Shown one piece after another: positions 20,514 through 27,389 of a stretch of DNA of 64,000 nucleotides; position 1 is the stretch's first letter; each line of letters begins with the position of its first letter. The stretch is taken from the NCBI RefSeq assembly GCF_001742305.1, contig NZ_MJAT01000012.1:1-64000 (forward strand). Reading direction: 5' to 3'. A model generated the notes under the pieces. The model did not search any database. It had not been told where the DNA came from and saw only the letters and a program-made list of their open reading frames with translations. The translations under genes were made by a program, and so were the position numbers. The stretch comes from Desulfuribacillus stibiiarsenatis. Its GTDB lineage: Bacteria; Bacillota; Bacilli; Desulfuribacillales; Desulfuribacillaceae.

Positions 20514-21743
20514 TTGGTCAATTATTCAATAGATTCCCTATTGGAACAAGGGATGAATAAGAACTCAAACAAAAGTGCTGATCGGGGGAAGAGTGTATTG
20601 AAAACTAAATCAAGAAAACTGTTCTTATACATTGATGAAAGCATTTTCAGTTATAATGGGCAAAATTACTTCGCTGTTGGGATGATGGCTGTTGTAGATG
20701 AAGCGAGTGAAAGTGTTATTGAGAAGGCATTAACAAATTTAAAGAACGATCCCGATATCCATGAAGAAAATACTAAGGAATGGGACAATAGAACATTAGA
20801 ACGAGGGTATTTCCATGCGACTGACGATAGTAAGAATGCACACAGCCATTTATGCAATTCTATCAAAGAGCATCTAAATGCTAAAGTCAGCTACGTTGTA
20901 TTAAAACCACATGATAGTAACTTTAACTTAACAGTTGAACAGAAACATCGAATCAATACAGAATTAGTTAGTTTAATAGCAACAGAATTTATCGGGGAAA
21001 TAAAGATTGTAATTGAAAACAGAATAAGTTTCTCGGAAACTATTGCCCAACAGTTTTATGAGAATTTGTACGAGGTCATTGATGCCTCAGTATACACCCA
21101 CCCCTGGTTATCGGCCAACTATCCTAAAATAGATATTGAAGTAGTGGGGAAAGAAAATCCGGGTGTTCAAGTAATCGATTTTATAACATGGGCCTTAAAT
21201 AATTTCTATAGCAATAATAAAAAGGGTATATGGTTTGAGCGTCTATCCCTTCAACAGAGGATGAAATACGATCAACCAGATGGGGATTTGGCTGGTGGAG
21301 AATACTCTTTGGGTAATTCAATTAAGGAAAATCTAAACATTTATCTGCTTAACCCATATCCAGATGAAGCTTTTCCCTTAAATGATGATTTTTACAACAA
21401 TATCTTTTTTGAGATGATCTACTTGCTTGCAGAACAAATATTAAATAAAATTTTCAGAGATGGATTACCTGAACATGTGATTCATTTTGAATCCGAGCTT
21501 AATGAATTGGTAACTCAGTTAAAAGGTGGTGCTACAAATTTGGAAATGATCAAAAAGGTTGCGAAGTTGTTTATACGATTGTTTGATACTATGCCTATAT
21601 ATTCAGAACTAAGAAAAGACATAGATTACAAAGCGTTTAAATTTATACTTCACGTTAGAAGATGCATGGGTTTAGTTGTAATGGAGAGATATATGGTTTA
21701 CCTGCTGTTAAGGTGTTCAAAGAGATTAGGCAACAATTGGTAG
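20514..21743 (+). CDS. DUF3800-family protein (RNase H-like fold), C-terminus possibly frameshifted
   Basis: A 409-residue frame from TTG at 20514; an internal ATG at 20553 is an alternative, and neither has a strong ribosome-binding site. Near residue 36 'LFLYIDESIFSYNGQNYFAV' matches the DUF3800 signature, and 'ENPGVQVIDFITWALNNF' the conserved GxQxxDFI region; the conserved acidic residues recall RNase H-like nucleases. The last 16 residues look unlike protein, while the neighbouring frame from about 21690 continues for 37 codons ('FKEIRQQLVEERNQDL...') to 21804, so one base may be lost near 21690. The dynamin-like GTPase gene follows. Function unknown; possibly defence. Confidence 0.65.
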   Translation: MVNYSIDSLLEQGMNKNSNKSADRGKSVLKTKSRKLFLYIDESIFSYNGQNYFAVGMMAVVDEASESVIEKALTNLKNDPDIHEENTKEWDNRTLERGYFHATDDSKNAHSHLCNSIKEHLNAKVSYVVLKPHDSNFNLTVEQKHRINTELVSLIATEFIGEIKIVIENRISFSETIAQQFYENLYEVIDASVYTHPWLSANYPKIDIEVVGKENPGVQVIDFITWALNNFYSNNKKGIWFERLSLQQRMKYDQPDGDLAGGEYSLGNSIKENLNIYLLNPYPDEAFPLNDDFYNNIFFEMIYLLAEQILNKIFRDGLPEHVIHFESELNELVTQLKGGATNLEMIKKVAKLFIRLFDTMPIYSELRKDIDYKAFKFILHVRRCMGLVVMERYMVYLLLRCSKRLGNNW

Positions 21744-21950
21744 AAGAACGAAATCAGGATCTTATTGGAGAACCCGATATCAAGCAACTAACCGATTTAT
21801 TTTGAACGACTATTATAAAAAAATGGCTCCCAAATAAGCCCGATTAATGGAGAATGTGATGGTAATCAAGTTTGGGATTTTTAGTTTTCTTCTCAAATTT
21901 GTATGGTTATCGATGAAAATATATAAGGAGGTGAATCATACCCTGGTGGT

Positions 21951-23876
21951 ATGAAGAAGATGATACAAAGAGAAAGCGTTGTAACCTTATGCGAACAATT
22001 AATCGCAGAATCAAAAGCAATTAAAGAAAATACTGGAAAACACTTTATAATTCAAAAAGTAGCCAATCACATATGTGAACGAGCATCAGAGATTAAGGAC
22101 ATTTGTTCAGTAGATAAGTATGATATATATTTTAACGGCAAGGTTGAAGTAGGTAAGTCAACTGCTATTTGCAATCTTTTTAATTTGGTGGATCGTAGCA
22201 AATTTACAGTAGATAAAAGACCTTCAGATGCTTTGTTGTTAAAAACAGCAAGTGGTAGGACAACTGTATGTGAAACTGTTATTACACAAATTGAAGATGA
22301 TAAAAGTAAAATTATTGTTGATCCAGTTAGCGTAGAAGAATTTCATGTTCTCGTAAGGGAATATATAAAAGCTATCTCTCCTAATTACAATGCTGATACT
22401 GATTCACTTCCCCCAGAAGAATTAATAAGGGCTTTGAAAAACATGCTACATATTCCTTCAGAATACACAAGCAACGAGGATAGATATCAGTTCTTACTGG
22501 ACAAATTTATGGTGGAACATACTGAAATAAATCAGAATGAATTAGTGAATATGCTTATAGTTGAGGTATCAAAGTATATAAATTATGAAAATAGAACTCA
22601 GATAGAATATTGTTGTGAGAGTGGAGATTTCAATGAGTGGTTGAAGAAACACTTTAATGATATAAACGATGGTAGGTTAGATAATTGTCCACTTCCGAGT
22701 AAGATATATATTGATATTAGGAAAAATGATATTGATATGGGTCTACCAAATTTTATTAGTCGTGTTATTGATACGAGAGGGATAGATGGCGGACAACGTA
22801 AAGACATACAAGATGTAATAAAGAATAAAAAGAGCATTTCGATCATGAATGATGAAATCGGTATGATCGGCGGAAACGCAGACTTGATGAACATAATGAA
22901 GCAAGTTCTTGTAAAAGAAAACATGGATCTAAGGCATAGAGTGTTTTTAATTGGTCTTGAAAGGGATTGCGAATTGAGTGATGTTCCTGACGCAGATGGG
23001 AATAGAGAATCAGGAAAAAAAATAAAAACGCAGCAAGCAATAAATAGAATGAAAAAATCAGGAATTAACTTTTCTTTTGAAAACATAGCTTTCTATAATT
23101 CCTTTTATGGTATAGCGATAGCATCGTCTAACAAAAAGATAATGAAAATATGTTCTGAGCAATATGATCAAGAGAAAAATGAGTTTTTCAACTTTATCGA
23201 AGATGGCCTGAAATTTATGTACTCTGGATACAGGAAGGAACTGATGGATCTTCTCGATAAGGTAAAATTACTTGAGAAAAACAGTATAACTGAGGAAGTT
23301 TTAATAAAGTTAGATCAGAGTAAAGACGCTGTAATTGTAACTAAAGAGGAAGCAAAACATCAAGTTTATGATTTGATTGGTAAATTAGAAGAAGAAATTC
23401 AAGGCACACATCCTTCTGTATTAAGGGCATCTGTAAATAGGTTAGGAATTTATCCAAGCTTTAATCTTTATGCGACCATTCAGAAACTTGGTGGTGAAGA
23501 ATTTACCAAAAAATGTCTTGAAGTAAAAAGAGAATTGGTAGGAAACATTAAAGGAAGATTCGGATGTAGTGTTGGAATCGAAGAGGTAATATTACAAACT
23601 CTGCTTTCAAAAATTGACCTTGAATACTATAATTACTATGAAAAAAGTCGAGCATTATATTATGAAATATCTGATAGGGGACTCCATAATGTAGAAACAT
23701 GGGAAAAGCCACTCCAGTATTGGGGGGACGGTAATAAAAAATATCGTGAGCGAGTTACAGTAGATATATTAAGGGAGGTAATGAAAAAAGAGGTGCAAAA
23801 GTCACTTTCGAAATTTTTGATATTAGATTTATTTTTTGATGGTTTGGTTAAATTTATGGATTTCAATCAACAATAA
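21951..23876 (+). CDS. Dynamin-like GTPase
   Basis: A 641-residue protein with a P-loop near residue 60, 'IYFNGKVEVGKSTAICNLF' (G1), and a G3-type 'RVIDTRGIDGG' near residue 275; the C-terminal half is helical with 'FNFIEDGLKFMYSGYRKEL' and coiled-coil character, as in bacterial dynamin- or LeoA-like proteins. AAGGAGGTGA lies 16 bases before the ATG, and a tiny in-frame-stopped frame (GTG at 21932 to TGA at 21953) overlaps the start, so the exact start is unsure. It follows the DUF3800 gene; several bacterial dynamins act in membrane protection or anti-phage defence. Role here is inferred. Confidence 0.65.
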   Translation: MKKMIQRESVVTLCEQLIAESKAIKENTGKHFIIQKVANHICERASEIKDICSVDKYDIYFNGKVEVGKSTAICNLFNLVDRSKFTVDKRPSDALLLKTASGRTTVCETVITQIEDDKSKIIVDPVSVEEFHVLVREYIKAISPNYNADTDSLPPEELIRALKNMLHIPSEYTSNEDRYQFLLDKFMVEHTEINQNELVNMLIVEVSKYINYENRTQIEYCCESGDFNEWLKKHFNDINDGRLDNCPLPSKIYIDIRKNDIDMGLPNFISRVIDTRGIDGGQRKDIQDVIKNKKSISIMNDEIGMIGGNADLMNIMKQVLVKENMDLRHRVFLIGLERDCELSDVPDADGNRESGKKIKTQQAINRMKKSGINFSFENIAFYNSFYGIAIASSNKKIMKICSEQYDQEKNEFFNFIEDGLKFMYSGYRKELMDLLDKVKLLEKNSITEEVLIKLDQSKDAVIVTKEEAKHQVYDLIGKLEEEIQGTHPSVLRASVNRLGIYPSFNLYATIQKLGGEEFTKKCLEVKRELVGNIKGRFGCSVGIEEVILQTLLSKIDLEYYNYYEKSRALYYEISDRGLHNVETWEKPLQYWGDGNKKYRERVTVDILREVMKKEVQKSLSKFLILDLFFDGLVKFMDFNQQ

Positions 23877-24296
23877 AAGGTTGAATTTTTAACCTAAATC
23901 CATCTTACCAATACCCTACTATGTAAATTGGCAAATAATTAAACATAGATGTTCCTAAATAGTTACTGCTATATTTAAGTTGACGAAGAAAGATTTCTAT
24001 CCCAATGTGACAAAGACATCTCTATCACCTTTCAATCCCAGGAACGCGACCCCTCTCGCACGAATTTCGCGGAATTATACAGGGGAATCTACTAAGTCCT
24101 AAGGTTATCAGCCATACAGCGTGACAACCCTTGACATACGGTGTTTTTAGTAATGATGTATCACTTCCAAAAGTACATACTTTTAGAACAGTAAATCAAA
24201 TAGAATATAAAGCCATAAAAAACTACCTTCAGGAAGTTTAAAAGTTAGTCTATAATTATTGTATATAATATAGCTGACTCTTGGACGATAATGGAG
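23877..24296. other. Non-coding stretch, no gene seen
   Basis: About 420 bases without a credible frame. A short segment at 24045-24150 has more G+C than its surroundings ('ACGCGACCCCTCTCGCACG', 'CAGGGGAATC'), as if it came from another source. A possible -10 and a GGAGGTG site at its right end belong to the resolvase remnant. Confidence 0.35.
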
Positions 24297-24411
24297 GTGT
24301 TTTTTATTAAGATAGGATATGCTAGAGTTTCAACAGCCGATCAGGAACTGGAAGCACACTAGAAATGTTAAAAGATTATGGGTGCGAGAGATTCATGGAG
24401 AAAATGTCATA
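24297..24411 (+). pseudogene. Resolvase N-terminal remnant
   Basis: After TGGAGGTG the frame reads 'IKIGYARVSTADQELEAH' and stops; in another frame it continues 'EMLKDYGCERFMEKM'. This is the start of a Tn3/Hin-type resolvase with its catalytic Ser (RVST), truncated after about 35 residues where the repeat cluster begins. It is clearly broken. Confidence 0.75.
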
Positions 24412-24836
24412 GTCAATGGTATGTCATAGAAACTTTAAAAAATTTCATAATGAGTGGTAAATGTCATAGATAACCTTGTAAAAAACCACATTACCTTGCA
24501 AAATGTCATAGATAACTTGTAAAAAGCCACATTATCTTGCAAAATGTCATAAATAGCCTTGTAAAAAGTCATAGTTACCTTGTAAAATGTCATAGATAAT
24601 ACAAAATAGCGATATATAAGCTTTCTAAAGCTCTTTCGATTATAAACATGAGGGCTATTTTAAAGAAAAAGTTATAGTTTCCTTGGTAAATGTCATAGAT
24701 AACACAAAACAGCGATATATAAGCTATCTAAGGCTCTTTCGATTATAAAAACGAGGCTATTTTAAAGAAAATGTCATAGTTTCCGCGGTAAATGTCATAT
24801 TTCACGTGGTAAATGTCATAGATAACAAACAGAAAC
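24405..24836. repeat. Cluster of direct TGTCATAG repeats, resembling TnsB-type transposon-end binding sites
   Basis: The octamer TGTCATAG or a one-base variant occurs at 24405, 24422, 24462, 24504, 24545, 24567, 24588, 24691, 24772, 24793 and 24814, all in the same orientation. Several lie in longer units such as TGTCATAGATAAC followed by CTTGTAAAAAGCCACATTA. The stretch 24588-24690 is repeated at 24691-24792 with about a dozen changes, a local 100-bp duplication. Arrays of TGT-starting direct repeats at element ends are typical for Tn7- and Tn552-like transposases, and a tnsA remnant lies 4.5 kb to the left. Replication iterons are a less likely alternative. Confidence 0.6.
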
Positions 24837-25525
24837 AGCTTTTTTTAACTTGTAAAGGATGTATATATACAAAAAGGGGATATATGAAATATTATTATAA
24901 CTTTTGAAAAAATCGTATTTATCTTATCGTAGTTTTATAAATCCTTATTTAGCAGGCTATAAAATTTGAATTGAATATATAGCAATATATAGCAATATAT
25001 AGCGAATATAGGTAAATGTCTATAATTATATAGTAAATATATAGTAATACTTCTAACCTCTATAATTATATAGTGAAAATATATAATAATAATATATTAA
25101 TTATATATTATCCAATAAAAGTGAAAAGTAAGGTATTTTCTATTTAATCAAAATCTTGAATTGTATAAAATTGAAGTTATAATAAATTGACTACTTAAGT
25201 AATAGGGAATAGAATCGAGAAAAGGACAAAATTGGTAGATTAGGAACTGTCAGCACACTTGAAATTTAATAATAAAGTTTAAGAAATGTCTCGGCACTTC
25301 GCTTTAGCGATTGTGACCGAGCCTTATCTGTTTAAAAGGGGGAAATTGAAATGAGCGTTTAAATTTAAAATGTAGAAAAATATTATTATGTTATTGAAGG
25401 AAAAGATATTTGATTATAGCGTAAACGTATAATTCAATGGTAATCGGATGATTGCAGCCAAGTGTAAACACATAATAGTTAATGTAGTTAGCCATGGTTG
25501 ACAAAATATATTAGGGGGAAAAAAG
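24837..25525. other. Extremely AT-rich stretch with small repeats and one hairpin
   Basis: No gene is visible. At 24978-25012 ATATAGCA units are repeated, and CTATAATTATATAGT occurs twice (from 25019 and 25060). At 25290-25321 a strong compound stem pairs CTCGG/CCGAG, CAC/GTG and TCGC/GCGA around a TTTA loop; it is not followed by a T-run. The segment may be an unwinding or end region of the former element. A GGGGG ribosome-binding site at the right end belongs to the next gene. Confidence 0.45.
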
Positions 25526-25771
25526 ATGAAGAATATTGATGAAATTATAAAGGAAAGTAATCGTTTGATTCAAGAATCTAATAAACTAAAAGAATTATTT
25601 GAGATATTAGGCGAATCTGAGCCATTCTCACCAAAGTGCTTTGGATGTGAGGAATACCATAAATTTCTAAATGAACATACAAGGAAATACCCGGAGGTTT
25701 ACTCAGAGGACTCATTTAATAATTCAGGGGATAAATCAGGGGATAAAATAACAAAAAATAATAAATATTAG
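25526..25771 (+). CDS. Small hypothetical protein with a CxxC pair
   Basis: An 81-residue protein with TTAGGGGGAAAAAAG before the ATG. The N-terminal 35 residues form an amphipathic coiled coil ('IIKESNRLIQESNKLKELF'); the middle holds 'PKCFGCEEYHKFLNEH', a CxxC with nearby His that could bind a metal; the tail is hydrophilic and low-complexity. Not recognised. It is the last gene before the tRNA attachment site. Confidence 0.55.
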   Translation: MKNIDEIIKESNRLIQESNKLKELFEILGESEPFSPKCFGCEEYHKFLNEHTRKYPEVYSEDSFNNSGDKSGDKITKNNKY

Positions 25772-27184: not shown

Positions 27185-27219
27185 TTGACTTGACGCAGAC
27201 AATTGAGATATGTTATCAT
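27185..27219 (+). promoter_or_regulatory. Predicted sigma-A promoter of the cysteine-rich peptide
   Basis: TTGACG (27190-27195) and TATCAT (27214-27219) with an 18-base spacer. The -10 overlaps the perfect palindrome TGTTATCATAACA (27211-27223), and the Fur-like box begins just downstream, so the promoter could be controlled from two operators. Confidence 0.5.
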
Positions 27220-27228
27220 AACATTATC

Positions 27229-27247
27229 GAAAATGATTATCATTTCT
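27229..27247. promoter_or_regulatory. Fur box
   Basis: GAAAATGATTATCATTTCT matches the 19-bp Fur consensus at 15 of 19 positions. Its core AAATGATTATCATTT (27231-27245) is a perfect 7-1-7 palindrome as in Bacillus Fur sites. It lies 22 bases before the ATG of the 23-residue peptide, so repression by iron-loaded Fur or a relative (Zur, PerR) is likely. Confidence 0.75.
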
Positions 27248-27268
27248 AAAGATGCGGGAGGTTTGATA

Positions 27269-27340
27269 ATGAGTAATCAAACAAAATGTAAATGCAAGAA
27301 TTGCCAATGCCATACAGGTGGCTGCGGGTGCAAGAAGTAG
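27269..27340 (+). CDS. 23-residue cysteine-rich peptide (metallothionein-like), Fur-controlled
   Basis: A very short gene with GGGAGG 7 bases upstream of the ATG and a terminator 24 bases after the stop. The product has six Cys (7, 9, 12, 14, 19, 21) and one His (15) in 23 residues: 'CKCKNCQCH' then 'CGCKK'. This CxCxxCxCH...CxC pattern is typical of metal-thiolate peptides. A Fur-like box covers its leader. Similar tiny cysteine-rich peptides exist in Bacillota but I cannot name a characterised one. Inferred role: binding or delivery of a metal when iron or zinc is scarce. The intact signals on both sides argue that it is a real gene. Confidence 0.75.
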   Translation: MSNQTKCKCKNCQCHTGGCGCKK

Positions 27341-27363
27341 AATAGCGCTTTGTCGTTTAATGG

Positions 27364-27389
27364 GAGCCCGAATTTGGGCTTCTTTTTTT
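27364..27389 (+). terminator. Rho-independent terminator after the cysteine-rich peptide
   Basis: AGCCC, loop GAATTT, GGGCT, then C and a run of seven T. It isolates the peptide gene as a single transcript. Confidence 0.85.

Follow-up and report, generated by a model that had tools for sequence, protein, structure and literature searches.

The bacterial metallothioneins SmtA and BmtA are small cytosolic peptides that combine a CxCxxCxC block with a second CxC and have histidine among their ligands; a CxCxxCxC block together with CxC is a metallothionein-like ligand pattern. The known bacterial metallothioneins respond to metal excess, through SmtB and similar regulators, rather than to iron shortage. 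Very short thioneins occur in fungi, as typified by the Neurospora crassa MT, a Cu-thionein of about 25 amino acids with 7 Cys. Mycobacterium tuberculosis possesses MymT, a small Cys-rich metallothionein outside the SmtA family (PMC7387436). Among the Fur-regulated small basic proteins are FbpA, FbpB and FbpC, whose RNA-chaperone roles are unproven (PMC7430163), and a Bacillus under mixed-metal stress can mount an iron-starvation response of the Fur type (PMC9938188). Searches of open-access text turned up no paper on a bacterial metallothionein under Fur control.

Here we discuss a locus in a 64,000-nucleotide stretch of the Desulfuribacillus stibiiarsenatis genome (contig NZ_MJAT01000012.1, positions 1 to 64,000; hereafter the window). 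With a probability of roughly 55% we read it as a Fur-repressed one-gene unit encoding a cytosolic metal-thiolate peptide of 23-26 residues, a minimal metallothionein that would buffer soft metals under iron starvation. Metal-thiolate binding by the peptide is plausible from its sequence, and we infer from the same letters that Fur binds, that the peptide is translated, which metals it may bind and what its physiological role might be.

Gene and transcription unit

The segment 27185-27389 of the window makes up a complete predicted one-gene unit, with promoter, Fur-type operator, ribosome-binding site, ORF and terminator (Table 1). These are the parts that a preliminary description had assigned to it, and the architecture recurs in the one other genome of the order, hereafter the relative. 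The predicted mRNA would begin at about 27226 and is about 165 nt in size (165-195 nt). Within the promoter fragment 27185-27260 the candidate Fur-binding sequence is ATGATTATCAT; the box lies at or just 3' of the inferred transcription start, and a start just before or within it would give the geometry usual for repression.

Table 1. Features of the peptide locus in the window.
Feature	Position	Strand	Remark
Alternative -35, TTGACT	27185	+	alternative to TTGACG
Sigma-70/A-type promoter, TTGACG - 18 nt - TATCAT, TG-extended	27190..27219	+	10/12 matches
Perfect palindrome ATGTTATCATAACAT over the -10	27210..27224	strandless (.)	probably incidental
Fur box GAAAATGATTATCATTTCT, 19 nt	27229..27247	strandless (.)	15/19 on the better strand
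Perfect 15-nt palindrome (7-1-7) AAATGATTATCATTT	27231-27245		inside the 19-nt Fur-like box
Ribosome-binding site GGGAGG	27256..27261	+	7 nt before ATG; spacing identical in the relative
Peptide gene MSNQTKCKCKNCQCHTGGCGCKK, CxCxxCxCH...CxC	27269..27340	+	23 aa, six Cys and one His
Possible small hairpin GCCAU-ACAG-GUGGC in the coding core	27309..27322	+	in centroid structures
Intrinsic terminator, 9-bp stem and T run	27362..27389	+	closes the one-gene transcript

The peptide locus is the sole ORF in the window of 15-60 aa that runs from start to stop, is preceded by a GGAGG or AGGAG site and contains at least 20% Cys, and Markov-shuffled windows yield 0.05 such Cys-rich ORFs per window. That the frame might be a chance ORF without a product is suggested by its very short length; conservation of peptide, operator and architecture across genera speaks against this, and we give the idea next to no weight. 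Because it is conserved with the same architecture in the other genome of the order, the short ORF is, as far as sequence conservation can tell, a real gene, and the CxCxxCxCH plus CxC peptide can stand as originally described.

The second perfect palindrome of the preliminary description, that over the -10, stands as a sequence but finds no support as a regulatory site. Within 2 mismatches ATGTTATNATAACAT occurs 40 times in the genome as compared with 43 times for its reversed control, and the palindrome is absent from the relative's promoter; on these two grounds it was rejected as an operator. The relative's promoter carries a perfect palindrome of its own, GACTAA-AG-TTAGTC, at the -35 and spacer (L002 1409-1422), which is unrelated to that of the window and is treated as incidental.

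Copy in the sister genus

The order is represented in the collection by two genomes, one per genus, and the gene is present in both. With the window peptide as a single query, tblastn recovered the relative's copy (G001, L002 1483-1563; E = 4.8e-5), which encodes MVKKVASKCNCKNCQCHKGGCGCNSK. Fifteen columns are invariant between the two peptides (M, two K, six Cys, N, Q, H and three Gly); the ligand block reads CKCKNCQC in the window peptide and CNCKNCQC in the relative, and the CHxGGCGC tail is kept together with the His and all six Cys. Loss of the Cys pattern in close relatives had been named beforehand as refuting the proposal; the pattern is conserved. The control region of the relative consists of TTGACT-17-TATAAT, a Fur box (TGAAAATGATAATTGTTATCA) directly after the -10, GGAGG-7 nt-ATG and a terminator after the ORF, and the GC content of the locus is 37.2%.

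The surroundings of the two genes are different. In the window the gene lies between those for a Cu-amine-oxidase-N-domain protein (upstream) and a HAD hydrolase (downstream); in the relative its upstream neighbour encodes a NIR_SIR/ferredoxin protein and its downstream neighbour an RlmD-like methyltransferase (annotated by eye). Across the 19.5 kb around the relative's copy no gene has a match in the window, so that placement is non-syntenic, and neither locus has a metal-homeostasis neighbour. Further upstream of the peptide gene, at 20514-25771 of the window, ORFs of 409, 641 and 81 aa resemble accessory genes. Since the neighbours differ between the two genomes, the peptide gene persists as an independent unit, and this speaks against a role as leader peptide or operon member.

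Two of the rival explanations can be weighed here. A short Cys-rich ORF followed by a terminator recalls a leader peptide, in which translation through the clustered Cys codons would control the terminator; but conservation extends to residues other than Cys (KN, Q, H, GG, G), neither of the downstream genes is a cysteine gene, and initiation would already be under the Fur box, which leaves this explanation highly improbable. The second is an iron or Fe-S handling peptide, which would hold Fe(II) or a cluster in the making while iron is short. Fur control and the sulfite-reductase-like 4Fe-4S protein upstream in the relative are in its favour, but the window locus has no such neighbour and CxCxxCxC is not known as a usual Fe-S motif; we consider it very unlikely.

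Metalloregulator

Box scores were tested against AT-rich 69-bp stretches from the same genomes. The best 19-nt Fur-box match reaches p = 0.006 in the window promoter and p = 0.002 in that of the relative, in keeping with the Fur-type palindrome noted earlier, whereas a PerR box in the same promoters reaches p = 0.05 at best. Zur boxes score 9/14 at best in both promoters (p 0.23), which is background, as is everything found for MntR in either promoter. Zur and PerR control of the peptide gene were rejected on these box scores.

Both genomes encode Fur-type and PerR-type regulators, the types having been assigned by eye. There are four Fur-family regulators in the window genome (L046, L048, L050 and L051; Fur-, PerR- and Zur-like and one more) and two, Fur- and PerR-like, in the sister genus. 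No Zur-type paralogue is detectable in the relative, which nevertheless keeps both gene and box, so that control by zinc limitation is unlikely and iron the likely signal. Iron or zinc limitation had both been offered as the setting of the gene; the iron half of that suggestion gains from the Fur box in both genomes, and the zinc half loses.

The top-scoring Fur boxes of both genomes precede genes for ferric/siderophore-type ABC binding proteins, a flavodoxin and a DUF2325-like protein (identified by eye), from which it appears that the Fur-type box is in use for iron genes. Genome-wide box counts, at 23 against 20 and 34 against 23 for the reversed control, are barely above it, and the box alone is therefore weak evidence; the strong part of the Fur case, as read from the two promoters, is that the box recurs at the corresponding position in two otherwise unrelated settings. 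By this box at the promoter and start, and by the presence of a Fur-type repressor in both genomes, the peptide gene is a probable member of the Fur regulon.

Two box arrangements deserve mention. In both genera (L185, L188) a near-perfect Fur box precedes a small DUF2325-like gene, after which comes a response-regulator-like gene, and the role may be iron-linked. At L194 (G001:C30, about 213970-213994) a pair of overlapping Fur-like boxes separates a divergent gene from the gene for an ArsR-type repressor that has CadC-like Cys motifs, which suggests a joint control point for iron and heavy metals.

Distribution

A profile built from the two sequences gave no further convincing match in 399 class genomes, where the weak tblastn and HMM matches that were inspected proved to be chance, and in 398 genomes of the phylum it had no match with E of 0.01 or below. 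In neither of two additional samples of the class (17 and 83 genomes, both without a positive control) did a relative of the peptide turn up, nor in Pfam (E up to 10), NCBIfam or PDB, nor among phages, plasmids and viral contigs. When a loose DNA pattern of the Cys spacing was run over all genome contigs, those inspected among the matches listed were due to chance, and this pattern weighs neither for nor against distant relatives. The best reading of these searches is that the gene is lineage-restricted, being present in 2/2 genomes of the order and found in none outside it among about 800 sampled; the wider spread in Bacillota contemplated in the preliminary description is not borne out.

RNA-level signals

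The two coding sequences are somewhat more alike than their peptides would lead one to expect. The same codon is used at 12 of the 14 shared non-Met/Trp residues, where 8.0 are expected from control gene pairs (P about 0.02), and a cruder pooled comparison gives a codon identity of 0.86 versus about 0.45. The possible hairpin of the coding core has a counterpart, GCCAC-AAAG-GUGGC, in the relative. Because codon-level conservation exceeds that of control genes and the hairpin is shared, we retain a dual-function RNA among the explanations.

One such explanation treats the cysteines as secondary: the product would be an iron-sparing factor, either a Fur-repressed small RNA with a basic peptide inside it or an Fbp-like RNA helper. 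The size of the transcript, its Fur control and its form as a one-gene unit with a terminator resemble FsrA or IsrR, and the net charge of the peptide (about +5/+6) also speaks for it, as do the codon and hairpin data. On the other side, Cys, His and Gly, and not basic residues, make up most of the invariant positions. Rfam shows no known RNA at the gene and no FsrA-like RNA near it (two sub-threshold matches lie elsewhere in L001 only), folding of the whole transcript is not significant (z -0.8 and -1.3), and inspection of the conserved core revealed no C-rich stretch opposing a ribosome-binding site. We hold an iron-sparing factor of this sort to be unlikely. Quite unlikely, too, is the more ambitious combination, in which one Fur-repressed transcript would be both an iron-sparing small RNA and the message for the shortest bacterial metallothionein-like peptide, capturing soft metals at low iron, perhaps As(III)/Sb(III) in these presumed respirers of arsenic and antimony.

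Proposed function

For the minimal metallothionein that we prefer, the following course of events may be envisaged. Under iron-replete conditions Fur-Fe(II) would occupy its box by the start site and prevent transcription; when iron falls, the mRNA would be made and the peptide would accumulate. Its six Cys (CxCxxCxC and CxC) and one His could form a small soft-metal cluster: seven ligands are enough to hold two Zn(II) that share one bridging thiolate, to build a Cu4S6 cluster or to make up two AsS3 sites. The peptide would then buffer the excess of Zn, Cu or metalloid that accompanies iron shortage, an excess that might arise from derepressed, unselective iron importers or from soft-metal damage that is read as iron starvation. 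The canonical prokaryotic metallothionein (PF02069) was not found in either genome, so that, within the reach of the PF02069 model, no other metallothionein-like product would stand beside the peptide. Weighing against the proposal are the metal-excess response of the known bacterial metallothioneins, the absence of metal-homeostasis genes next to either copy, the small basis of two sequences, and the codon-level signal, which hints at a constraint on the RNA as well.

The AsS3 option leads to a narrower proposal, namely that the peptide is a sink for the trivalent arsenic and antimony produced by respiration, with two Cys3 sites per peptide. Apart from the six Cys, which suit two such sites, the link with Desulfuribacillus favours it: D. 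alkaliarsenatis (37.5% GC) carries arr and ars operons. The operator, however, is of the Fur and not the ArsR type, and no ars genes were recognised nearby; we regard this proposal as a long shot.

If the minimal-metallothionein reading is true, metal-thiolate peptides can belong to the response to iron starvation instead of that to metal excess, and bacteria may make use of metallothionein-like peptides with fewer than 30 residues that are invisible to profile libraries and probably also to standard gene finders. A small synthetic peptide would provide a direct test of what the iron-starved cell must buffer.

Comparison with known systems

Pattern comparison places the peptide closest to SmtA/BmtA (PF02069), with which it shares the CxCxxCxC block, the second CxC and the His. 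It differs in having 23-26 rather than about 55 residues and six rather than about nine Cys, in lacking the central zinc-finger part, and in the Fur box before its gene, where SmtA/BmtA are under SmtB/ArsR or Zur control. No PF02069, other Pfam or NCBIfam profile matches it; by this family test it is not a PF02069 metallothionein, and at most it may work like one.

The Neurospora crassa MT is similar in size, in Cys and Gly density and in its paired CxC motifs, but the present peptide is bacterial, contains His and appears to be Fur-controlled, and the likeness is one of size and Cys pattern. With the FbpA/B/C and FsrA system of B. subtilis it would have in common a Fur-repressed, very small basic protein in the Bacillota and a place in the iron-starvation response; the Fbp proteins are not known to carry a Cys/His ligand pattern. 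MymT is likewise small, Cys-rich, bacterial and outside the SmtA family, and it is about twice as long and copper-induced. What would set the peptide apart from the known metallothioneins, judging from the two copies, is its length, its Fur control and its restricted distribution.
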